A stretch of 64,000 nucleotides of DNA. Origin: Phormidesmis priestleyi BC1401 (GTDB lineage Bacteria > Cyanobacteriota > Cyanobacteriia > Leptolyngbyales > Leptolyngbyaceae). Shown piece after piece: positions 1-64,000 of the stretch; the first letter of the stretch is position 1, and every line of letters begins with the position of its first letter. The notes under the pieces are model-generated. The model did not search any database. It had not been told where the DNA came from and saw only the letters and a program-made list of their open reading frames with translations. The stretch is from positions 1 through 64,000 of the forward strand of contig NZ_LXYR01000020.1 in the NCBI RefSeq assembly GCF_001650195.1. Direction: 5' to 3'. Position numbers and translations under genes: made by a program.

Positions 1-57
1 CATCAACGGTTAATTCCTGTTCGATGGCATTGCAGAAGGATGAAATAGTCTGAATCC

Positions 58-89
58 AAAAAGCCCTTCACGTCTGTGGAGGGCTTTTT
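58..89 (+). terminator. Strong hairpin terminator of a gene left of the window
   Basis: A 14-bp stem (58-71 with 76-89, one G-T pair) closes on the four-base loop GTCT and ends in a run of five T. The left arm begins with five A, so the hairpin could work in both directions. It sits upstream of the first complete gene and most likely ends a plus-strand gene beyond the left edge. Reading frames entering from the left stop at 12, 48 and 53, so the last codons of that gene may be inside the window, but I cannot tell which frame is used. Confidence 0.8.
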
Positions 90-205
90 GTAGGTGTATC
101 TGCGGTTGTGAGACAGTCGAGCAATAAAGGTTCTAAGAGAAACTTAGACTTTTTGCGGAACACGATCGTAGACTGCAAGAAAGCCTCTATCTCATATCTA
201 CAGTC

Positions 206-3118
206 ATGACGCTAACGCAGGTTTGGGGGTCTCTCATAATCTTTATAGTCTGCCCGATCGTGGGAGGACTCCCTCTGATCGATTGGATGACTTATGGAAT
301 GACTAGGAAGCGGTTAAAGAATCTTGGCACTGGAAATGTGAGTGTCTCAGCTGCTTTCTATCACGGTGGGCGATTGGTCGGAATTCTAGCTGTTCTCTCG
401 GAGGCGCTGAAGGGAATTGCAGCCGTTTTGTTGGCTCGTGCCTTTTTTCCTGATAATGCTGAATGGGAGATTATTGCGCTGATTGCGCTCGTATTTGGTC
501 GTTATTGGATAAGTATAGGGGCGGGAACAACGAATGTTGTTTGGGGCTATGCAGTGCATGATCCGCTCTCTGCTCTGCTGGTTTTTTTGATTGGTGGCAT
601 TGGCTTTACGATTCTTCGAGAACGTACTCAAGGTCGAGTTGGCATTCTGATTTTGTTCCCTTTGGTGACAGCGCTGCGTCATTCTCAAGATTCGGCACTG
701 ATTGTCATGACGATCGCGCTAGGGTGCCTCTTAGGATGGGTTTACAAAAAGCTTCCAGATGACTTAGAGATGAGAGCTGAAACTGCACAAAAAAATTCAC
801 AATCTATGTTTAGGTTTTTTCGGGGCGATCGAGCGCTCATCTCTCTTGACCAACCACTGTCACCTCAGAAGGCAGGAGAAAAAGCGGCAACCCTGTCTGA
901 TTTGAAGCGATTGGGCTATCCTGTCCCGGAGGGTTGGGTTTTATTTCCGGGTGATGATCCTGCGCCGTTGATCGAATTCCTTCAGCCGTCTGAAGCAGAG
1001 CCTTTAGCTGTGAGATCGTCGGCGATCGGCGAAGATTCTGAGTCAGCTTCGGCAGCCGGACAATATCAAACCATTTTGGGGATCACGCGGCGGGAAGAAT
1101 TGTTGCCTGCGATTTCGAGATGTTTAGAGTCTTATCATCAAGCGTCGGCAGTTCAGTATCGGCGCGATCGCGGGCTGCCAGATACTTCAATGGTGGTGCT
1201 GATTCAAAAGCAGATTCGAGGCGCGTTTTCGGGAGTTGCGTTTAGTCGCGATCCGATTTCTAGACAGAGCAGCACGGTTGTGATTGAAGCACTCCCAGGT
1301 GATGCGGCATCTGTGGTATCGGGGCAGGTGACCCCAGAGGCTTATGAAGTCCAAGTATCTGATTCTTTAGCCTCTAATTGGGTTTTGTCAGACGATCAGG
1401 TTCTAGAGGTGAATGGATTGGGGGATACTCCACCTCGATTGGTGCAACAGATTGCGTTTCTGGCACGTCGTCTTGAAAATGAATATCACGGCGTTCCTCA
1501 AGATGTGGAGTGGACTTATGATGGTCAGACTTTATGGGTGTTGCAGTCTCGACCGATTACAACGCTAGTGCCGATCTGGACGCGCAAGATTGCGGCTGAA
1601 GTGATTCCTGGATTGATTCGTCCGCTTACGTGGTCAATTAACCGCCCGTTAGCGTGTGGCGTTTGGGGGAAGATTTTCACGATCGTGCTGGGCGATCGCG
1701 CTCAAGGACTCGATTTCAACCAAACCGCCACGCTGCATTATTCTCGCGCCTATTTTAATGCCTCACTGTTGGGTCAGCTTTTTCGACGGATGGGGTTGCC
1801 TGCTGAAAGTTTAGAGTTTCTCACAAGAGGGGCAGCGTTTAGTAAGCCTCCAATCGGGTCAACGCTTCGCAACCTGCCAGGATTACTGCGATTAGTGGGT
1901 CAAGAATTGCAGCTTGAGAAAAATTTTCGTCGAGACGATCGACGCAAGTTTGCTCCATTTCTAAAGCAAGCCTCGGTGCAGCCTGCTGTTGAGCTATCTG
2001 CTTCTCACCTCCTAGAACGAATTAATTTAATCCTCGAACTACTAGAAGTGGCGACCTTTTATAGTATTTTTGCTCCGTTGAGTGCGGCATTGCGAAAGGC
2101 AATTTTAAAAGTCGATGATGGACAAATCGATAACGGAGATACGCCAGAGGTAGCAGCATTGCGATCGCTGCAAGCATTAGCAGTTTTAGCCCGTGAGAAT
2201 TTACTGAGTAATAAATGGATCAATCCAGCAGAGACAGAATCTCTGAGCAGCTTGAACCTATTTAAAATGCTAGATAGAACGGTGGAGAGTCGAGATATTC
2301 TCGATCGGTTTAACCAAATCTTAAATCGTTACGGCTATCTAAGTGAAGTGGGGACGGACATTGCAGTGCCCACTTGGAGAGAAGACCCGCACCCGGTTCA
2401 AGAGTTGTTTGCCCAATTTTGTTTGAATCCGCCTCCCAAACCAAGCTCAGTTCGATCGAAGGCTGGATTAGTGCAGCGTCGGTTTAGCCTGAAAGGACGA
2501 GTGACAGAAGTTTATAGTCGGTTGTTGGCAGAGTTGCGATGGAGCTTTGTCGCATTAGAAGCTGACTGGCTCAAGTCGGCAATATTGACTGAACCGGGCG
2601 ATATCTTCTTTCTAGAGTTAGCAGAAGTCCGGCAAGCCGTGAATCTTGATCAAACCATCCTTGATCAGATTCCTCAAATTATTGCTCAACGTCGATCGAG
2701 CTTGCAAAAAGATGGTCAGCTTGAGTCGGTTTCCACGATCGTTTATGGCGATGATCCCCCTATTCCCGTTTTAGAAAACTGGCAGTCTTCGCAGCAACTG
2801 CAAGGAATTGGAGCCAGCATTGGACAGGTTGAAGGACGCATTAAAGTGCTGCGATCGCTTTCTAATGTGGGAGAGATCGATCGAGAAACCATTCTCGTTG
2901 TGCCTTATACAGATTCTGGATGGGCACCGTTGTTAGCCAGAGCAGGTGGATTGATCGCAGAAGTCGGAGGTCGGTTGTCGCATGGTGCGATCGTGGCTCG
3001 TGAATATCGCATTCCTGCGGTGATGGATGTCCAGAATGCGACCAATATTCTGCGAGATGGTCAGCTTGTCCGTATCGATGGTCAGAGGGGAACAGTGGAA
3101 ATTTTAGGTCAGGAATAA
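206..3118 (+). CDS. PlsY-like membrane domain fused to PEP-synthase/PPDK-like protein
   Basis: Two-part protein of 970 residues. Residues 1-185 are hydrophobic, with several membrane segments, and resemble the acyl-phosphate:glycerol-3-phosphate acyltransferase PlsY (GTGNVSVSAAF near residue 41, an LKGIAAVLLAR helix). The other PlsY motifs are degenerate. Residues about 205-455 form the ATP-binding domain of PEP synthase/pyruvate phosphate dikinase (AVRSSAIGEDSES, then EWTYDGQTLWVLQSRP). A helical middle follows, and then the swivelling phosphohistidine domain with GGRLSHGAIVAREY (His926). The C-terminal PEP/pyruvate barrel of true PEP synthase is absent, so the enzyme should phosphorylate or dephosphorylate something other than pyruvate through a phosphohistidine; that is inference. 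Acyltransferase activity is doubtful. ATG start; transcribed alone and convergent with the next gene. Confidence 0.8.
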   Translation: MTLTQVWGSLIIFIVCPIVGGLPLIDWMTYGMTRKRLKNLGTGNVSVSAAFYHGGRLVGILAVLSEALKGIAAVLLARAFFPDNAEWEIIALIALVFGRYWISIGAGTTNVVWGYAVHDPLSALLVFLIGGIGFTILRERTQGRVGILILFPLVTALRHSQDSALIVMTIALGCLLGWVYKKLPDDLEMRAETAQKNSQSMFRFFRGDRALISLDQPLSPQKAGEKAATLSDLKRLGYPVPEGWVLFPGDDPAPLIEFLQPSEAEPLAVRSSAIGEDSESASAAGQYQTILGITRREELLPAISRCLESYHQASAVQYRRDRGLPDTSMVVLIQKQIRGAFSGVAFSRDPISRQSSTVVIEALPGDAASVVSGQVTPEAYEVQVSDSLASNWVLSDDQVLEVNGLGDTPPRLVQQIAFLARRLENEYHGVPQDVEWTYDGQTLWVLQSRPITTLVPIWTRKIAAEVIPGLIRPLTWSINRPLACGVWGKIFTIVLGDRAQGLDFNQTATLHYSRAYFNASLLGQLFRRMGLPAESLEFLTRGAAFSKPPIGSTLRNLPGLLRLVGQELQLEKNFRRDDRRKFAPFLKQASVQPAVELSASHLLERINLILELLEVATFYSIFAPLSAALRKAILKVDDGQIDNGDTPEVAALRSLQALAVLARENLLSNKWINPAETESLSSLNLFKMLDRTVESRDILDRFNQILNRYGYLSEVGTDIAVPTWREDPHPVQELFAQFCLNPPPKPSSVRSKAGLVQRRFSLKGRVTEVYSRLLAELRWSFVALEADWLKSAILTEPGDIFFLELAEVRQAVNLDQTILDQIPQIIAQRRSSLQKDGQLESVSTIVYGDDPPIPVLENWQSSQQLQGIGASIGQVEGRIKVLRSLSNVGEIDRETILVVPYTDSGWAPLLARAGGLIAEVGGRLSHGAIVAREYRIPAVMDVQNATNILRDGQLVRIDGQRGTVEILGQE

Positions 3119-50364: not shown

Positions 50365-51336
50365 GTGCTTCACTTCGTCAGAAGTCCATTCCACTTTTTT
50401 CTTATTCCGTGGGTCTATTTAGCCTTGACAGCCTCACCGTTTAGCGTCCACCGTCCGCAGAGATTTGTTTGCGTCTTCCTAGATTCGAGTCAGTTGGCTC
50501 AGTCAGTTCAGCAGGTTCTGAGCCGTGACGCACTTCAAGAAGAACGCTACACCGTCACCCTACCCCAGTCTGATCAAGCGTTCTTCTCATTGATTGAGCA
50601 ACAGCGGCAGCATCTAGACTGTTTGATTTTGCAGAACGGCTCTAAACTGCCGCGCCTGATTGCTTGGCTGCACAACCACTCAACCCTGTTGCCAACCATT
50701 ATCTTAGAGGCAACGTCAGAAGTCTATTCGGGGATTGCGGCGTTAGAGGCGCAGTTAATCTTTTTCTATCATTCAGCAGAAATTAGGCTGGCTCTCAATA
50801 AAGTAGAGGAGACTGCCGAATTTATTGATCAGGCGATCGACGAATTTCTCAACCTCTCGCCATCGTGTCGTCTGTCTGACCCCTCGTCTAAACCAGATCT
50901 CACCACCGATCTCAGCCCTCAAAACTTTTTGCTGTTGCATCAGCGGCGGTTGACTGAGAAGCTAAAACGATCGGGCTATCTAGGAATTTATGACAAGCGC
51001 AACCCTAAGACGTTTTTGCGATGTCTACCGCTGGCTGAACGAGAACAGTTTTTAAGTCAGTTGCGGCTCGATTATCGGGCGATCGTTTTGAATTACTTCA
51101 TGAATGACAGTCGGCTAAATCAAAGAATTGATGACTTTGTAAATACGATTTTCTTTGCTGATATCCCCGTCGCTCAGATTGTTGAAATTCACATGGAACT
51201 AATGGATGACTTTGCCAAACAGCTAAAATTAGAGGGGCGCAGCGAAGATATTTTGCTCGATTATCGATTGACTTTGATTGATACGATCGCGCATGTATGT
51301 GAAATGTATCGGCGATCGATTCCCAGACAGTCTTAA
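50365..51336 (+). CDS. kaiA: Circadian clock protein KaiA
   Basis: Stimulates KaiC autophosphorylation by binding its C-terminal tail. The N-terminal pseudo-receiver starts around FVCVFLDSSQLAQSV. The C-terminal four-helix dimer and KaiC-binding domain carries YLGIYDKRNPKTFLRCLP, VEIHMELMDDFAKQLK and ILLDYRLTLIDTIAHVCEMY, all highly conserved. A full-length KaiA, unlike the short form of Nostoc. No ATG is available near the domain start. The GTG at 50365 gives 323 residues with about 30 extra hydrophobic N-terminal residues; TTG at 50425 would remove 20 of them. The start is therefore uncertain. Confidence 0.95.
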   Translation: MLHFVRSPFHFFLIPWVYLALTASPFSVHRPQRFVCVFLDSSQLAQSVQQVLSRDALQEERYTVTLPQSDQAFFSLIEQQRQHLDCLILQNGSKLPRLIAWLHNHSTLLPTIILEATSEVYSGIAALEAQLIFFYHSAEIRLALNKVEETAEFIDQAIDEFLNLSPSCRLSDPSSKPDLTTDLSPQNFLLLHQRRLTEKLKRSGYLGIYDKRNPKTFLRCLPLAEREQFLSQLRLDYRAIVLNYFMNDSRLNQRIDDFVNTIFFADIPVAQIVEIHMELMDDFAKQLKLEGRSEDILLDYRLTLIDTIAHVCEMYRRSIPRQS

Positions 51337-51393
51337 AATTTGCAAATGAAGTTTTATTGATCCGCGGCTGGCTTTTAAAGCTTCCTAGAAACC

Positions 51394-51708
51394 ATGAGTC
51401 CACTAAAGAAAATCTACGTTCTCAAGCTCTATGTCGCTGGAAACACGCCTAACTCGGTTCGAGCGCTCAAAACGTTAAACAATATTTTAGAGAAAGAATT
51501 TCAAGGAGTTTATGCGCTGAAAGTGATTGACGTACTCAAGAATCCGCAGTTAGCCGAGGAAGATAAGATTTTAGCAACGCCGACGTTAGCCAAGATTTTG
51601 CCGCCCCCTGTTCGTAAAATTATTGGCGACCTTTCAGATAGAGAAAAAGTCTTAATCGGACTCGATCTCCTCTACGAAGATCTTCGGGAAGAGGAAGCCG
51701 ATGGCTAG
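51394..51708 (+). CDS. kaiB: Circadian clock protein KaiB
   Basis: 104-residue fold-switching protein that binds phosphorylated KaiC at night and sequesters KaiA. The thioredoxin-like sequence [20 protein letters not shown] and [20 protein letters not shown] are diagnostic. Length matches the usual 102-108. ATG start 57 bases after kaiA; kaiC follows after 105 bases. Confidence 0.97.
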
Positions 51709-51813
51709 AAAAGCTGGCTAGAAAACTCTCGATAGACAATCTTTAGTAAACAAATTTAATGCAGTCGCCTTTAGTTTTAGACGCTTGCGGCTCTGGTTTG
51801 AACCACACCTCTT

Positions 51814-53367
51814 ATGAATCAAACGAATCAAAGCGAATCGCACAATCAAGTAGAAACGTCAGGCATTCAAAAAATTCGTACCCTGATTGAGGGCTTTGAT
51901 GACATTAGTCATGGAGGCTTGCCTATCGGTCGCACCACCCTAATTAGCGGCACATCTGGCACCGGGAAAACCCTCTTTTCGGCTCAGTTTCTCTACAACG
52001 GGATTACCCAATTTGACGAGCCAGGAATTTTTGTCACCTTTGAAGAATCCCCGGCAGATATCATCACAAATGCGTTGAGCTTTGGGTGGGATCTCCAGAA
52101 ATTTATCGACGAAGGGAAGCTGTTTATTCTTGATGCGTCCCCCGATCCCGAAGGGCAGGATGTGGTGGGAAACTTTGATTTATCGGCTCTAATCGAGCGA
52201 ATTCAGTACGCCATTCGCAAATATAAAGCGCGGCGGGTGTCGATCGACTCGGTGACAGCGGTGTTTCAACAATATGATGCGGCGGGTGTGGTGCGTCGAG
52301 AGATTTTTCGATTGGTGGCACGACTCAAGCAGGTGGGCGTGACCACGATTATGACCACTGAACGAATTGATGAATATGGTCAGGTGGCTCGATTTGGGGT
52401 CGAAGAGTTTGTCTCCGACAACGTAGTCATTGTGCGAAATGTTTTAGAGGGTGAGCGGCGCAGACGGACGGTTGAAGTGCTCAAACTGCGCGGCACCACC
52501 CACATGAAGGGTGAATATCCCTTCACAATCACCAATCAAGGGATCAATATTTTCCCACTCGGAGCGATGCGCCTGACTCAGCGATCGTCCAACATCCGCG
52601 TCTCGTCGGGGGTGACGATGCTCGATACGATGTGTGGCGGCGGCTTTTTTAAAGACTCGATTATTTTAACCACTGGGGCGACTGGCACCGGGAAAACGCT
52701 GCTGGTCAGCAAGTTCTTGCAGGAAGCGTGTCAGAGGGGCGATCGAGCCATCTTGTTTGCTTACGAAGAGTCTCGCGCTCAACTGTCTCGCAACGCCTAT
52801 TCGTGGGGCATCGACTTTGAAGATTTAGAGCAAAAAGGCTTGCTCAAAATCATTTGTGCCTATCCTGAGTCGGCAGGGTTAGAAGATCACTTGCAGATTA
52901 TTAAGTCAGAGATTGCCGAATTTAAGCCCTCGCGGATCGCGATCGATTCACTCTCTGCCCTTGCCCGTGGAGTCAGTAATAACGCCTTTCGTCAGTTTGT
53001 GATCGGTTTGGCAGGCTTCGCTAAGCAAGAAGAGATTACCGGATTCTTCACCAACACTACCGATCAGTTTATGGGTTCTCACTCGATCACTGACTCCCAC
53101 ATTTCGACGATCACCGACACGATCATCATGCTGCAATATGTGGAGATTCGCGGTGAGATGTCTCGTGCGCTCAACGTTTTTAAGATGCGCGGCTCCTGGC
53201 ACGACAAAGGCATCCGTGAATACACCATCAGCGCTCAAGGTCCAGACATCAAAGGCTCGTTCCGCAACTTTGAGGGCATCATCAGCGGTTCACCGACTCG
53301 AATTGCGGTCGATGAAAAGACGGATTTGTCTCGGATTATTAACAGCGTCAAAGACGGAGACTCATGA
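51814..53367 (+). CDS. kaiC: Circadian clock ATPase/kinase KaiC
   Basis: 517-residue double RecA-fold protein. CI has Walker [11 protein letters not shown] and catalytic Glu pair TFEESP; CII has [10 protein letters not shown] and FAYEESR. The phosphorylation sites Ser431 and Thr432 are in place in SHISTITDT, at exactly the reference numbering. The CII C-terminus ([18 protein letters not shown]) is the KaiA-binding tail. The hexamer counts time through its phosphorylation cycle. ATG start. Its last four bases overlap the purE start. Confidence 0.98.
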
Positions 53368-53879
53368 CTCAACCGCTAATCGGGATTATTATGGGCAGTG
53401 ACTCAGACTTGCTCACCATGCAAGGCGCGATCGCAGCCTGTGAAGAATTTAATGTACCTCATGAAGTGAGCATTGTCTCAGCTCATCGCACCCCCGATCG
53501 CATGGTGGACTATGCCAAGCAAGCCCATCTCCGCGGACTCAAAGTAATCATCGCAGGCGCAGGCGGCGCCGCCCATCTGCCCGGAATGGTCGCTGCCTTA
53601 ACGCCTCTGCCTGTGATTGGTGTGCCCGTGTCGAGTCGGCACCTCCAAGGCGTAGATTCTTTGTATTCGATCGTGCAAATGCCTGCCGGAATTCCAGTGG
53701 CGACGGTGGCGATTGGCAATGCTAAAAATGCGGGTTTGTTAGCGGTGCAGATACTTGCAAGTCACGATCCCGATCTGCTAGCACAGGTTCAGCGCTATCG
53801 TCAAAGTCTCGCTGATTCAGTGATGGAAAAACAAGCCAAGCTAGACGAGGTAGGCTACAAAAAATATCTGGAATCTTGA
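53364..53879 (+). CDS. purE: N5-carboxyaminoimidazole ribonucleotide mutase
   Basis: Class I PurE moves the carboxyl group of N5-CAIR to form CAIR in purine synthesis. [42 protein letters not shown] and [17 protein letters not shown] are the classic motifs. 171 residues, normal. Its ATGA start overlaps the kaiC stop by four bases, so it is probably translated from the kai transcript by coupling. That would place a purine step under clock-gene expression, as inference. Confidence 0.96.
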
Positions 53880-57411: not shown

Positions 57412-60400
57412 ATGGAATTTACTGGGTCATCTGCTTGGAACCGGAACTCGCTGTCCCCCGATGCTGCGCCTGCTGCGGCTGCGGTTAGCAATTCTCTCGC
57501 AGCCCCGATTTCCACTCTCGCACTGCGGACTCGTGCAGCCACGTCTCTATTATTTATAGAGGCTAACGTCACCGATTATCAAAGCCTGGTGGCTGGGGTA
57601 AAGGCGGGAACTGAGGTTCATGTGCTCGACCCGATCGCAGATGCAGTCACCCAAATTACCCAAACTCTTGTAGGGCGCACCGGAATCTCTAGCCTCCATA
57701 TCGTCTCGCATGGAGAGGCAGGCGGTTTGCAGTTAGGCAGCACTGAGTTAGATGGGCAGAACCTCGATCGCTATGCGACGCAACTAGGATCTTGGTCACA
57801 GGCGCTGACTCCAGATGCCGATATTTTGCTCTATGGCTGCAATGTCGCTCAAGGGGCACAAGGTCTTGATTTTGTGCAGCGTCTGGGGCAGATGACCGGG
57901 GCAGATATTGCAGCCTCCAATGATTGGACGGGCGATCGCGCGGCAGGAGGCAACTGGACATTAGAGGTTCATACGGGCGAGATTGCGGCGGGTCTTGCTT
58001 TTCAGGCATCTACCTTGGCAAATTATCATCATCTGTTGCCCGTTGATCTGCTGTCTCCGATCGACCCCGCTTTGGTCAGTGGAAGTGACAGCACGGGCGG
58101 CAGCTTGGGCACTGGCTCAGTGAGCAATGACGGGCGCTATATCGTCTTCACGAGCAATTCGGGCAGTTTGGATGCCACCGATAAAAATGGTAAATCGGAT
58201 GTGTTTTGGCTCGATCGTCAAACTCAAACGCTAAAACTCGTCAGCCACAATCTCGGCAAAACAGGTAGCTCAAATGGGGCTTCGTCGAGCGCGGTGATCA
58301 GTGGCGATGGTTTGTCAGTGGCGTTTGTGAGCGATGGGACTGATCTCGCCCTTGGTGATCAAGACTCGCAAAAAGACGTGTTTTTGTGGAAATGGGACAG
58401 CGCTACTAGCACCGACACGCTGAGTCTCGTGAGCGGCACCAACAATAGCGCAATCTCAGATGGAGATTCTTATAACCCTATTATTAGCGACAACGGTCAG
58501 TATGTCTCGTTTTTAAGCGATGCAGCAAACCTGACTTCTCTTTCTGACAGCAATGGTCAGCCTGATGTCTTTCAGTGGGATGGATCAGCGAGTATGAATG
58601 CAGTCACGCTCGTCAGCCGAAATCGCAGTAAGAACGGGAGTGGCATCAAAGGAGTATCGACCAGTTTCTCAATGAGTCGAGATGGCAATTTTGTCGCCTT
58701 CAGCAGCAATGCCAATAACTTAGTCGCCTTTACGATCGACCTCAATGGCTCTACTGAAGACGTGTTTCGCTGGGGTCGTGTCGGTAACACGATGACCTTA
58801 ATCAGCAGAAGTCTTTCTCCCAGCACAACCGGAGCGGACGGGGAATCAATCAATCCAGTCATCAGCAATGATGGGAGCCGCATCGCATTTGTAAGTGCAG
58901 CGAAAAACCTAGATGCACTAGATAGCGACAACGCGAAAGACATCTTTTTATGGGATAATGCCAGCGCGACTGCTAACAAGATTCGCTTGATCAGCGTCAA
59001 TAGCGCCGGAACGAATAGCGGTAGTAAATCAGCCAATCCCTTTGCTGAGAGTGGGTCTCTCAACCCAGTGATTAGCGGCGATGGGAAGTATGTGGCGTTT
59101 ACCAGCTATTCCACAGATTTGATGGCGGCTGCTGACGCAAACAATAAGCAAGACGTGTTTGTCAGAGATGTTGATGCGTCCACAAATTTTCTAGTCAGCG
59201 GTAACAGTGCTGGGGTGTTTGGCAACGATGTCTCGTCTGACCCGTCGATTAGCGGAGATGGCAAGCGAATTAGTTTTGCCAGCAGTGCCAGCAATCTAGT
59301 CACGGGCGACACGAATGGCAAGCGCGATGTCTTTGTCCATGATTTAACTGGCAGCACGACTTCGTTAATCAGCCGCAGTGCAACCGCGATCGGAGATAAC
59401 GATTCTCCCGCAGATGACCCGACCAATCCCTCGGTCTACGCGTCTGCAATCAGCGCAGATGGAAAGTTTGTGGCGTTTACCAGTCTAGCCAGCAATCTGG
59501 TCGATCGAGATGGCAACAGCGCGGCTGATGTGTTTATCGCCCAGTTGCCGACCGTCGTAAATCTAGCTAGCTCAATTAGTTTGGTGTCTCGTCAAGGGTC
59601 TGACCCATCGCTTACGCCCAAGACGGGGAGTGAAGACTCGACGCTGACGGGCAACTCAGTGAGTGCCGATGGTCGCTATGTGGTTTACACAAGCAAAGCT
59701 CCTGAATTAGCGCCTAACGATGTCAATAGCGCTCAAGACGTGTTTGTCAGAGACAATCAAACCAACACGGTGACGCTGATCAGTCGCACCTCCGCAGGCT
59801 CGTCAGGAAATGGAAATTCTTATAGCCCAGTCATCAGTCGAGACGGTCAGTTTGTTGTCTTTGTCAGTGACGCATCTAATTTGGTGGCGGGTGACACGAA
59901 TGGAGCATCCGACCTCTTTTTATGGGAGCGATCGCAGCCTAACACTCTGACGCTGATCAGCAAAATCAATAGCGGAACAACGAGCGGAAATCAAGCTTCG
60001 CTGAATCCCATCATTAGCGGCAACGGTCAATATGTTGCCTTCACCAGTTTGGCAACTAATCTTGTGAGTGGCGATAGCAACGCAAAACAGGACGTGTTTG
60101 TGTGGGAGCGATCGACTAAAACAACCACGCTAGTTAGCCATGCGAATGGGAGCACAAACAGCAGCAATGGCACATCTGAGAATGCGTCGATTAGCGATGA
60201 TGGACAGATGATCACCTTCACAAGTGACGGCACAAACTTGATTGCAACGCCGACGGCTGCACAGAAACAAGTGTTTTTCTGGGATCGCAAAGCAACTCCG
60301 CTTTCACTGATTGGTCAAGATAGTGCAGGCGCGATCGCCAACGCAGAATCAGACAACGCAGTCATCAGTGGCGATGGACGCTATGTTGCCTTTACGAGCA

Positions 60401-63400
60401 GTGCATCGAATCTATTTGGCAACGATACTAACGCGGCTCAAGATGTGTTTATTCGAGATTTGGTCAAGAACACGACGACAGCAGTGAGTGTCGATTCTGC
60501 GGGAGCTTATGGCACCGTGACTGGAGGCGCACCTGGGAGTGGAGCGTTTGCATCAAGTCCGGTGATCAGCAGCTATGGAGGTAAGGTCTATGTCGCATTT
60601 ACCAGCACCTTTAATACGCTGGTCGCTACTGATACCAACAGCGCTCAAGATGTGTTTGTGCGCGAAATTGATATCAATGACTCCACCAAGAGCCGAACAA
60701 TCTTAGTGAGTGTTAACAACAATGGCACCGACAGCGGCACAGGAACGGGGACGGGCGGCTCGTTTGGTGGAACGGGTTCATTTAGCCCCTTACTCAGCCG
60801 AGACGGACGATTTTTGGCGTTTGTCAGCTACTCTAATAATCTTGTTGCCAGTGACACGAATGGCGCACAAGATATTTTTGTTCGAGATTTACTGCTCAAC
60901 AATACAACGCTAATTAGCAAGAACAGTGCCGGAACCGATAGTGGAAAAGGAACTTCTGACGTTCCGGTGATCAGTAGCAGTGGCAGCTATATTGCGTTTG
61001 TTAGCAATGCGGGTGATCTGGTTGGAGGCGATTTCAACGGCAAATTTGATGTGTTTGGCAGCAAGTTGTTGCCGTTGGTAAGTCTGACCACGATCGCCGC
61101 AACTGCCAGCGAAGCGACGCCCTCTAGCGATCCGGCAATCTATCAAATCAAGCGCAACACTAAAACAGGAGAACTGACCGTTAAACTCGCGATCGATCCA
61201 ACCAGCACGGCGGCGGCGACCGATTATGATCTGTCGGTCGATCCGGCATTTGCGACGATCGTCAGTTTCTCTGCGACTGAGATTGTTCTGAAATTCTTGA
61301 GTGGCACAGACACGATCGATCTCAAGATGACTCCAAGAGACGACATTCAAGCGGAAGCAGACGAAACTCTAAAGCTATTTATCACCGCAGACGCAGCCAA
61401 TTCGGGCTATGCGATTAACACGAGTGATAACACAGCGACGACGACGATTCTGGCAAACGATACCGCTGTCATCAACACGAACGATAGTGGTGAAGGATCA
61501 CTCCGTCAAGCCATTATTAACGCGAACGCATTCGCTGGCGCAAATACAATTAGCTTTGCGATTGTGGGGACTGGAGTGCAAACGATCGCGCTACAGTCTG
61601 CTCTGCCGATTCTCAGTGATGGAGTCACGATCGACGGCACGACTCAAACCGGATTCACCGACACTCCTTTAATTGTCTTAGACGGCACTGCTGCTGGGGC
61701 AACTGCGAATGGCTTACAAATCTCCGCCGGAAGCAGCACCATTAAAGGACTCGCGATCAAAAACTTCGCTCAAGACGGCATTTTGATCGACACCCAAGGC
61801 GGCAACACCATTCAGCAAAACGACCTTTCGACAAACAAAGGGTCGGGGGTCGCGATCGTGGGCACTGTCACCGGAAACCGCATTCAGGGCAACACCTTCA
61901 CGGGCAATACAGGTTTGGGGATTGACCTCGGCAACGATGGCGCAACTGCCAACGACGCAGGGGATTTAGATGTAGGTGCAAACAATCTGCAAAACTTCCC
62001 CGTGTTAAAGATCGCCGAACCGATCGGAACGGGAGCCGCGATCGGCGGAACACTCAACAGCGCACCAAGTGTTCAATTCCGAGTCGAATTTTTTAGCAGC
62101 GATGCGACGGGCACGGCTCAAGGCAAAACCTTCCTCGGCTTCACGAATGTCACCACTGATGCAAGCGGCACTGGAACCTTTAGCTTTACGGCTGCTGGAG
62201 TCGCTCTCGGAGAGTTGATTACCGCGACAGCAACCGACGCGAGTGGCAATACGTCAGAGTTATCGACGGCAAAAGCAGTGGTGGTTCCTACCGTCAGTCT
62301 AGATGCGACCCCGGTTAAGCTGCCAGAAGGCACCGCGACTTCTACCGCGATTCCCTTTGTCATCACCCTGTCTCAGCCCAGCACCCAAGATGTTGTTGTC
62401 ACTTACAGCACCGCAGACGGCACCGCGACGATCGCCGATAGCGATTACACGCCTGCTGCGGCTGCCAGCATTACCTTTGCTCCGGGTCAAACAACCCAGA
62501 CGATTAACATTGACACGATCGCTGATAATCAATACGAACCCGATGAAACCTTCACCGTTACGTTAAACGGAGCAACGAATGCGGCGTTAACTGCTGCCGT
62601 CAGCGCAACAGGCACGATTCAGAATGATGATCAAAAGCCGACAATCACGATCGCTAATGCGAGTCAGAATGAATTGGACAGCGGTTCTGCACCCATCATC
62701 TTTACAGCAAGTCTATCGAACCTTAGCACTGAAACTGTCACGGTAGACTACGCCACCGCAGACGGTAAAGCAACCGTGGCAGACAGTGACTACGCCAATG
62801 CATCGGGAAGTCTAACTTTCTTGCCGGGTCAACTCACTCAAACCTTTGAAGTTTTGGTCAATGGAGATACCAAATTTGAACCTGATGAACCCTTCCAGGT
62901 GATATTAGCAAATCCCATTAATGGCACGATCGTATCTGCTACGAACATCGCTACCGGAACGATTCTGAATGATGATCCGGGTCCCACGTTAAGCATTACA
63001 ACGCCCGCCGCACAGCTTGAAGGCACAAGCGGGACAAATACTCCTTATCTGTTCGTCGTCAATCTCAGTCAATCGAGTAGTCAAGAAGTCACGGTGAATT
63101 ATGCGACGATCGACGACACCGCGACGATCGCCGATAACGATTACACTGCCGCATCGGGGACGCTCACATTTGCGCCAAACACCACCAGTCAAACCGTCAC
63201 GGTTTTCTCTCAAGGTGACAAAAAGTTTGAAGTCGATGAGCAGTTTTTCGTCAAGTTGACGAGTTCAAATAACGCCAATCTTTCTGCCGCCGTTCAAGCG
63301 ACGGGCATCATTACGTCTGACGACACCACTCCTCCGACGCTGGAAATTGCAAACACAGAGGCACCAGAAGGCAATAATGGCACCACTGCTTACAACTTTG

Positions 63401-64000
63401 TCGTTTCCCTGTCGGATGCCAGTTATCAAACCATTACCGTCGATTACACCACACAGGATAAGGATGCGACGATCGCGGATCAAGATTATCAAACTGCTTC
63501 TGGAACCCTGACGTTTGCCCCCAATGAAACTCGTAAAACCATCACCGCTTTAGGAAATGGGGATAACAAATACGAGGGCACTGAGACATTTTTGATGAAT
63601 CTCAGAAATTCTTCAAATGCTACAATCTCAAGCGCAAGTTCAACGGGAACGATCACAAACGATGATTCTCTTCCTTTGATCAGCATCAACGACGTAAGCA
63701 ATCCTGAAGGAGATACGAGCACCACTAAAAATAACCTATTCACGGTTAGTTTAAGCAACCCTACAGATCAAACTGTTACTGTCGATTTTGCAACGGCAGA
63801 CGGTACAGTGGCTAACAGCAGTGCAACAACGGCTGATAATGACTACTTAAGCACTTCGGGAACGATCACGTTTAATCCGGGTGAAATCACTAAGACGATC
63901 GCTGTTGCTACAAATGGAGATGCCAACTTAGAGAAAGACGAAGAGTTCTCTGTGAATCTTAGCAATGCGAAAGAAGCTGGAATTCTCAAAGGTCAGGGCA
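57412..64000 (+). CDS. Giant DUF4347/beta-propeller/Calx-beta protein, 3' end beyond window
   Basis: Incomplete at the right edge; at least 2,196 codons without a stop. Start: the first ATG after the in-frame stop at 57385, with GAGAAG upstream. Residues about 45-205 are DUF4347 (SSLHIVSHGEAGGLQLG, ADILLYGCNVAQG). From 238 to about 1200 are sixteen TolB-like blades, each about 63 residues with a core such as ISGDGKYVAFTS ... DVFV. Next come a Calx-beta-like segment (about 1224), a beta-helix-like stretch (TNDSGEGSLRQAIINANAFA near 1360) and, from about 1626, five Calx-beta repeats (CalX core DYTPAA, DNDYTAASGTLTF). There is no N-terminal signal peptide. DUF4347 proteins are usually secreted by type I systems via C-terminal repeats and act as adhesins or surface proteins; that is inference here. 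Confidence 0.9.
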   Translation, partial: MEFTGSSAWNRNSLSPDAAPAAAAVSNSLAAPISTLALRTRAATSLLFIEANVTDYQSLVAGVKAGTEVHVLDPIADAVTQITQTLVGRTGISSLHIVSHGEAGGLQLGSTELDGQNLDRYATQLGSWSQALTPDADILLYGCNVAQGAQGLDFVQRLGQMTGADIAASNDWTGDRAAGGNWTLEVHTGEIAAGLAFQASTLANYHHLLPVDLLSPIDPALVSGSDSTGGSLGTGSVSNDGRYIVFTSNSGSLDATDKNGKSDVFWLDRQTQTLKLVSHNLGKTGSSNGASSSAVISGDGLSVAFVSDGTDLALGDQDSQKDVFLWKWDSATSTDTLSLVSGTNNSAISDGDSYNPIISDNGQYVSFLSDAANLTSLSDSNGQPDVFQWDGSASMNAVTLVSRNRSKNGSGIKGVSTSFSMSRDGNFVAFSSNANNLVAFTIDLNGSTEDVFRWGRVGNTMTLISRSLSPSTTGADGESINPVISNDGSRIAFVSAAKNLDALDSDNAKDIFLWDNASATANKIRLISVNSAGTNSGSKSANPFAESGSLNPVISGDGKYVAFTSYSTDLMAAADANNKQDVFVRDVDASTNFLVSGNSAGVFGNDVSSDPSISGDGKRISFASSASNLVTGDTNGKRDVFVHDLTGSTTSLISRSATAIGDNDSPADDPTNPSVYASAISADGKFVAFTSLASNLVDRDGNSAADVFIAQLPTVVNLASSISLVSRQGSDPSLTPKTGSEDSTLTGNSVSADGRYVVYTSKAPELAPNDVNSAQDVFVRDNQTNTVTLISRTSAGSSGNGNSYSPVISRDGQFVVFVSDASNLVAGDTNGASDLFLWERSQPNTLTLISKINSGTTSGNQASLNPIISGNGQYVAFTSLATNLVSGDSNAKQDVFVWERSTKTTTLVSHANGSTNSSNGTSENASISDDGQMITFTSDGTNLIATPTAAQKQVFFWDRKATPLSLIGQDSAGAIANAESDNAVISGDGRYVAFTSSASNLFGNDTNAAQDVFIRDLVKNTTTAVSVDSAGAYGTVTGGAPGSGAFASSPVISSYGGKVYVAFTSTFNTLVATDTNSAQDVFVREIDINDSTKSRTILVSVNNNGTDSGTGTGTGGSFGGTGSFSPLLSRDGRFLAFVSYSNNLVASDTNGAQDIFVRDLLLNNTTLISKNSAGTDSGKGTSDVPVISSSGSYIAFVSNAGDLVGGDFNGKFDVFGSKLLPLVSLTTIAATASEATPSSDPAIYQIKRNTKTGELTVKLAIDPTSTAAATDYDLSVDPAFATIVSFSATEIVLKFLSGTDTIDLKMTPRDDIQAEADETLKLFITADAANSGYAINTSDNTATTTILANDTAVINTNDSGEGSLRQAIINANAFAGANTISFAIVGTGVQTIALQSALPILSDGVTIDGTTQTGFTDTPLIVLDGTAAGATANGLQISAGSSTIKGLAIKNFAQDGILIDTQGGNTIQQNDLSTNKGSGVAIVGTVTGNRIQGNTFTGNTGLGIDLGNDGATANDAGDLDVGANNLQNFPVLKIAEPIGTGAAIGGTLNSAPSVQFRVEFFSSDATGTAQGKTFLGFTNVTTDASGTGTFSFTAAGVALGELITATATDASGNTSELSTAKAVVVPTVSLDATPVKLPEGTATSTAIPFVITLSQPSTQDVVVTYSTADGTATIADSDYTPAAAASITFAPGQTTQTINIDTIADNQYEPDETFTVTLNGATNAALTAAVSATGTIQNDDQKPTITIANASQNELDSGSAPIIFTASLSNLSTETVTVDYATADGKATVADSDYANASGSLTFLPGQLTQTFEVLVNGDTKFEPDEPFQVILANPINGTIVSATNIATGTILNDDPGPTLSITTPAAQLEGTSGTNTPYLFVVNLSQSSSQEVTVNYATIDDTATIADNDYTAASGTLTFAPNTTSQTVTVFSQGDKKFEVDEQFFVKLTSSNNANLSAAVQATGIITSDDTTPPTLEIANTEAPEGNNGTTAYNFVVSLSDASYQTITVDYTTQDKDATIADQDYQTASGTLTFAPNETRKTITALGNGDNKYEGTETFLMNLRNSSNATISSASSTGTITNDDSLPLISINDVSNPEGDTSTTKNNLFTVSLSNPTDQTVTVDFATADGTVANSSATTADNDYLSTSGTITFNPGEITKTIAVATNGDANLEKDEEFSVNLSNAKEAGILKGQG

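Follow-up and report, generated by a model that had tools for sequence, protein, structure and literature searches.

TolB, a PD40-type propeller protein, has an N-terminal domain and a ring smaller than either of the two described here, and it binds Pal. Seven-bladed propellers of the PD40 blade family occur in Planctomycetota, Chloroflexota, Actinomycetota, Pseudomonadota, and others. It is already known that propellers can stand in tandem, differ in blade number, and gain blades by amplification, and a fungal array of 15 nearly identical WD40 blades has been predicted to split unevenly, 7+8, into separate rings (PMC9218822). Cyanobacterial tandem propellers with Asp-rich loops have been described in Npun_R4253 of Nostoc punctiforme, which has the calcium-blade motif Dx[DN]xDG and seven blades per ring (PMC3123361), and the biofilm adhesin BapP of Pseudoalteromonas tunicata carries, behind a signal peptide, an N-terminal five-bladed ring followed by Calx-beta repeats (PMC12153261). 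The stretch of 64,000 nucleotides of the cyanobacterium Phormidesmis priestleyi BC1401 analysed here (contig NZ_LXYR01000020.1, positions 1 to 64,000; hereafter the window) contains the beginning of a gene for a giant protein of 3739 aa, in which, according to Pfam, PD40 blades have DUF4347 on their N-terminal and Calx-beta repeats on their C-terminal side. Our structure prediction and sequence comparison indicate that residues 212-1218 of this protein very probably form two eight-bladed rings, and that the pair is likely to have arisen by duplication of a whole ring.

The giant protein shares with TolB the PD40 blade sequence, and TolB structures are among its fold matches (Z 17-18 by VIA-align with the model of the double array, and also Foldseek rows), but it has eight blades in each of two rings and DUF4347 at its N-terminus. 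Pfam gave no match to the TolB N-terminal domain, either in the first 2196 aa (E up to 1) or in the rest (E up to 0.01). The description of the repeats as TolB-like in the original prediction fits the blade (PD40); the wider family is mostly seven-bladed. The PD40 propellers of the phyla named above belong to the same blade family, as confirmed by tblastn, and have the D-x-N-x3-D loop motif in the aligned rows, but mostly comprise seven blades, some of them in 7+7 tandems. Dipeptidyl peptidase IV is similar in having eight blades (PMC9218822) and matches the second propeller with Z 17-19, but the giant has two rings; the alpha/beta hydrolase domain of dipeptidyl peptidase IV and S9 peptidases is absent among the Pfam matches of the 3739-aa protein. 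The tandem arrangement and Asp-rich loops are reminiscent of Npun_R4253, the order of propeller and Calx-beta repeats of BapP, which is not known to carry DUF4347, and the split of a long array into separate rings of the fungal WD40 protein. The combination of DUF4347 with propellers appears to be little described, to judge solely from a literature search on DUF4347 with cyanobacteria, which yielded one paper, on a different topic.

The blade core, searched as a regular expression, occurs exactly 16 times in the open reading frame (ORF), always in frame, with starts at 58120, 58297, 58483, 58672, 58861, 59071, 59248, and 59449 and, in the second half, at 59659, 59833, 60013, 60190, 60364, 60565, 60793, and 60970, while 1000 shuffles of the array region yielded 0.38 motifs on average and 4 at most. 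Pfam called PD40 (PF07676) independently, at 96.7 bits against a cut-off of 20.9. The sixteen repeats of the original prediction are thus confirmed; its positions lie within 0-12 bases of the motif starts, three of them (59256, 59453, and 60570) off the reading frame. A loop motif D-x-[ND]-x3..4-[DQ]-[VIL]-F is carried by 15 of the 16 blades, with blade 12 as the exception, and its strict form by 215 of the 256 blades of 16 giants. Tandem repeats were not detected at the DNA level across the array, whose blade copies are too diverged, and a sequence search of the PDB with the array gave no match.

Blades were also counted in relatives. Twenty ORFs, including that of the window, were scanned with a profile of the window blades (two more that had been fetched, L050 and L051, had no array and were dropped; L and G numbers are our labels for loci and genomes). 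Sixteen of them have one array of 16 blades, three have eight (L047, L048, and L023), and one has seven (L019). Of 388 genomes of the class that were searched (E up to 1e-60), 19 had a match, which added three giants, two with 16 blades and one (L143, G290) cut by a contig end after 14-15 and left uncounted. All 18 complete giants, that of the window included, therefore have 16 blades each by sequence, and 21 complete close relatives have 8 or 16, with one other having 7. Stray single matches beyond residue 1300 (L037-L040, L044, L046, L142) and one at residue 707 in L142 (core profile) are left out of these counts; in L044 and L049 the core profile shows 4+11, missing one weak blade, and a longer profile finds 16.

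The wider family was surveyed at 80 loci in named genomes that belong to many phyla, with a core profile of strands A-C and counting untruncated arrays of at least four blades. Among 103 arrays, seven blades are found in 73, eight in four, 11-16 in eight (including the giant L052), and 4-6 in 18; some of the irregular counts represent missed blades. Two of the four eights (L086, L110) are pieces of longer arrays, and the other two, from Verrucomicrobiota (L074, L102), look like true eights. L052, of Myxacorys almedinensis, and L034 (G019) have the same spacing and were treated as one gene. An earlier census profile, which spanned more than one unit, took the header strand for a blade, gave eight for a true seven, and was replaced by the core profile. 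Given the counts in the relatives and in the census, 8 and 8+8 mark a branch of a usually seven-bladed family.

Structure prediction favours two separate rings. The AlphaFold2 (AF2) model of the double array (1023 aa, nine-row alignment) has a mean predicted local distance difference test score (pLDDT) of 75.4 and a predicted template modelling score (pTM) of 0.53; its second ring is modelled better than its first. Each half has 32 strands, a lone one followed by 31, with the split near residues 712/722; the second lone strand lies at model residues 513-515, and one of the 31 after it has just two residues. Propeller 1 modelled alone (20-row alignment) reached a mean pLDDT of 81.8 and a pTM of 0.86, with 30 strands of at least three residues, one two-residue strand, and a bridge at residue 2. 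By VIA-align the predicted propellers match whole rings. The top rows for propeller 1, over span 1..503, are ODA16 (Z 24.4, 329 aligned), TBLR1 (23.0), human ODA16 (22.5), and Sif2 (20.8), and those for propeller 2, over about 511..1012 of the double model, are ODA16 (24.1) and TBLR1 (23.3), with matches also to the S9 peptidase 6igq (20.9) and WDR5 (16.9); RbBP5 matches propeller 1 with Z 17.6. We take ODA16, TBLR1, and Sif2 to be eight-bladed, and 6igq, CylK (7fh7), RbBP5, WDR5, and 3pe7 to be seven-bladed. Tako8, eight-bladed according to its PDB entry title and PMC6327176, matches propeller 1 with Z 20.2 over 308 of 318 residues at 4.1 Å.

Several of these results weigh against two eight-bladed rings. 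The double model combines its low pTM with a nine-row alignment composed mostly of arrays with 13-14 detected blades, and the sole listed row confined to its propeller 1 is 3pe7 (Z 16.9). The header strands lie in or beside stretches with pLDDT <50 (1-18, 504-513, and 519-534 in the double model, 6-19 in propeller 1 alone), which makes ring closure the least certain step. The presumably seven-bladed 6igq (Z 20.4, rmsd 5.7) and CylK (Z 19.2, 349 aligned) score like Tako8 against propeller 1. Together with the 73 seven-bladed arrays of the census, the latter scores would suit two seven-bladed propellers with unpacked extra blades, or a 7+9 split, and AlphaFold is able to leave a spare blade unpacked (PMC9218822). 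We nevertheless consider this arrangement improbable, as the DUF4347 relatives with a single ring have exactly eight blades and the complete giants sixteen, the model of propeller 1 alone includes all eight blades, and offset 8 gives the highest mean offset score in the giants. Moreover, the three or four top rows of propeller 1 are presumably eight-bladed. A single open solenoid, or one superring of 16 blades, might be suggested by the nearly continuous spacing over the junction of blades 8 and 9, but VIA-align rows take model residues 511-1012 or 1-508 as units, propeller 1 folds alone, relatives with a single eight-blade ring exist, and described toroids have four to twelve repeats (PMC6805158), so that such a structure is hardly credible. 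The fold comparison firmly indicates a propeller, with eight blades as the best of close choices; since its rows separate eight from seven only modestly, the main grounds for the blade number are the counts by sequence and the fact that the models use all eight.

In the proposed arrangement of two successive PD40-type propellers, each closed separately and with eight blades apiece, the last blade of each ring has only strands A-C. Because each ring opens with a lone outer strand ('DLLS' and 'ISLVS', respectively), we infer a 3+1 velcro closure, which would also make the array look nearly continuous.

As for the origin of the pair, the first (P1) and second (P2) propellers of the window protein align best in register, with 39% identity over 517 columns and 241 bits, against 155 and 105 bits when shifted. 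In the 16 giants, the mean blade-to-blade score is highest at offset 8 (1.59, compared with 1.52 at offset 1, 1.48 at offset 9, and 1.33 at offset 7), and by within-protein scores the pairing of blade n with n+8 ranks first of the 40320 possible pairings of blades 1-8 with 9-16. By across-protein scores it ranks 17/40320 and, for the inner six blades, 17/720, identically with a thinned set of 12 proteins; with the A-C core only, the ranks are 19/40320 and 19/720 for 16 proteins and 58/40320 and 51/720 for 12. The five 14-blade arrays show offset 7 as the best on average (1.61), singly best in L053 and L055 and not in L056, L077, and L124, and their pairing ranks 210/5040, weaker than in the giants.

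The whole-ring tree (68 rows, 478 columns; 30 of the 74 seven-bladed rows randomly drawn; rows with truncated arrays or spacing of at least 75 excluded) parts the seven-bladed rings from the eight-blade group at 100/98, apart from L110 and L063, which have long branches and represent only parts of longer arrays in which blades were missed. One clade (98/93) unites 14 of the 16 first rings and another (95/92) 14 of the 16 second rings, with the three single eight-bladed rings outside both; because of these separate clades, a single duplication is most likely older than the divergence of those genera. The giant L046 (G005) is an exception: its two rings are sisters at 100/100 and 79% identical in protein, and their DNA is 86.8% identical over 1163 bases, in register. 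Its blades n and n+8 are 73-95% identical for six pairs and 67% and 39% for the last two (mean 78.2%, compared with 34-54% at other offsets). By these sequence comparisons, L046 is the product of an independent, recent whole-ring duplication.

An alternative would be that both rings are eight-bladed but were built up independently, blade by blade, and that no finished ring was copied. It draws on the weak signal within the window protein alone, where the n to n+8 pairing ranks 1772/40320 (95/720 for the inner blades), so that the pairing test proposed with the original prediction gives a weak signal in the single protein and a clear one only with the pooled relatives. Two further results count against the duplication reading: best partners are commoner at offset 1 (57/256) than at offset 8 (38/256), and the node uniting P1 with P2 to the exclusion of the single eight-bladed rings is supported at only 93/70. 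L045 (G011) breaks the pattern, with its rings outside the P1 and P2 clades, blades 9-14 being 69-78% and blades 1-6 50-69% alike, which suggests that its blades were re-amplified within each half, the total being kept at 16. Blade-wise amplification is documented in many propellers (PMC9218822). Against this alternative stand the in-register alignment of the window propellers, the preference of the pooled orthologues for n to n+8, the fresh whole-ring duplication in L046, and the similar headers of both rings, where [LV][IL]S is joined in many of the giants by a [DN]PxL-like motif. On balance, separate blade-wise growth seems unlikely, somewhat less so than a seven-based arrangement. The original prediction of two tandem rings of eight blades that arose by duplication is thus supported by AF2, VIA-align, the counts of 16 or 8, the ring tree, and the pooled register.

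The sequence between the rings is of little help in this respect. In the window protein the rings end in DVFIAQLPTVVNL (first) and DVFGSKLLPLVSL (second), so that the shared DVF...LP-V-x-L linker, previously taken as a sign of duplication, is literally present; as just two of the 16 giants (those of the window and of its congener) have LP behind each ring, it does not serve as evidence for duplication. The distance between the starts of blades 8 and 9 is 70 aa, compared with 58-76 for the other spacings of this protein, and in the 16 giants it is 61-71 (mean 65.7), compared with 48-77 (mean 61.3) within rings; the linker is slight, and this spacing is not longer than some within the rings. A better mark common to both rings is the header that precedes them, in which the motifs named above are followed by a G/S-rich stretch.

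The ancestor was probably a DUF4347 protein with one eight-bladed ring, a variant of the mostly seven-bladed family, in which whole-ring duplication before the split of most genera would have produced the 8+8 pair, and the same event would have recurred recently in another genome of the same family. The two N-terminal discs could serve as a rigid ligand-binding platform, possibly stabilised by Ca2+, the Calx-beta repeats as a stalk stiffened by Ca2+, and the FG-GAP repeats at the C-terminus as a further propeller module. By analogy with known proteins, the giant might be an adhesin-like surface protein. Taken as a whole, two closed eight-bladed PD40-type rings and whole-ring duplication, with a tentative adhesin role, form what is probably the best explanation of our results.

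Coordinates of the giant gene and its propeller features in the window
Feature	Coordinates	Strand	Basis
Window part of the 3739-aa ORF	57412..64000	+	
DUF4347 domain (PF14252), residues 46-209	57547..58038	+	Pfam
Propeller 1: putative header strand D0 'DLLS' and blades 1-8, residues 212-712	58045..59547	+	AF2, VIA-align; header strand in low-confidence stretch
Blade 1	58105..58281	+	profile start
Blade 2	58282..58467	+	profile start
Blade 3	58468..58656	+	profile start
Blade 4	58657..58845	+	profile start
Blade 5, long D-A loop	58846..59055	+	profile start
Blade 6	59056..59232	+	profile start
Blade 7	59233..59433	+	profile start
Blade 8, only strands A-C; D0 strand presumably closes the ring	59434..59547	+	profile start, AF2
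Propeller 2: putative header strand D0' 'ISLVS' and blades 9-16, residues 722-1218	59575..61065	+	AF2; VIA-align, model ~511-1012
Blade 9	59644..59817	+	profile start
Blade 10	59818..59997	+	profile start
Blade 11	59998..60174	+	profile start
Blade 12, without D-x-N-x3-D motif	60175..60348	+	profile start, motif scan
Blade 13, long D-A loop as in blade 5	60349..60549	+	profile start
Blade 14	60550..60777	+	profile start
Blade 15	60778..60954	+	profile start
Blade 16, only strands A-C	60955..61065	+	profile start, AF2
Remainder within the window: parallel beta-helix stretch (best match residues 1433-1508), then start of Calx-beta array	61066..64000	+	Pfam

The first 2196 codons of the ORF lie inside the window, and it continues to G000:C20:68631 on the contig (C20) of 81230 bases. 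Calx-beta repeats score 229.7 bits over the first 2196 aa and 430.2 bits over the remaining part, where further Calx-beta repeats are followed by FG-GAP repeats (Pfam). By motif count, approximately residues 3180-3739 comprise 11 FG-GAP-type repeats of about 50 aa each, with the motif D-F-N-x-D-G-x-x-D-[IL]-[LF]-W, and this C-terminal part also has a W_rich_C match (38.1 bits, cut-off 26.2). The propeller array is present once in its own genome, where no second array was found.

The DUF4347 domains of the window protein and of relatives (e.g., L046-L048) contain H-x-x-S-H-G and, about 50 residues later, [AG][DN]IL[LIF]YGC. At the level of sequence motif, this pair is reminiscent of the His-Cys dyad of caspase-like (clan CD) peptidases. 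All 24 copies in the alignment (two belong to one gene) were chosen by the first motif, eight of these by both, so that YGC is an independent observation only in the other 16; H-x-x-S-H-G was unmatched in four of the 20 ORFs. A sequence search of the PDB with DUF4347 gave no match. The genome of the window contains one more DUF4347 match (G000:C21:55518-56021, reverse strand), inside an open frame of only 328 aa.

The neighbouring genes are ordinary overall. Upstream are kaiA, kaiC, and genes for AIR carboxylase, glutaminase, an Uma2 protein, and an alpha/beta hydrolase, with kaiA and kaiC and, immediately after them, the AIR carboxylase gene at 50365-53879, within a few kb of the giant gene. 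Downstream are a single ABC transporter gene (L144:1124-2848) and genes of VTT proteins.

What our analysis adds to the known behaviour of propellers is a branch with 8 and 8+8 blades inside a mostly seven-bladed PD40 family, and repeated whole-ring duplication in it. One blade family would thus offer a natural series of 7, 8, 7+7, and 8+8, with one old and one recent ring duplication and one blade re-amplification, in which real sequences allow a direct test of whether the blade or the ring is the copied unit. The ring departs from the usual seven, appears to have been duplicated at least twice independently (long ago in 14 giants and recently in G005), and still totals 16 in G011 after re-amplification. 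On these grounds we propose, as a rather doubtful possibility, that the 8+8 number itself is selected in this cyanobacterial lineage. If so, the paired discs would function as one unit, which might be a two-site, Ca2+-dependent ligand clamp.

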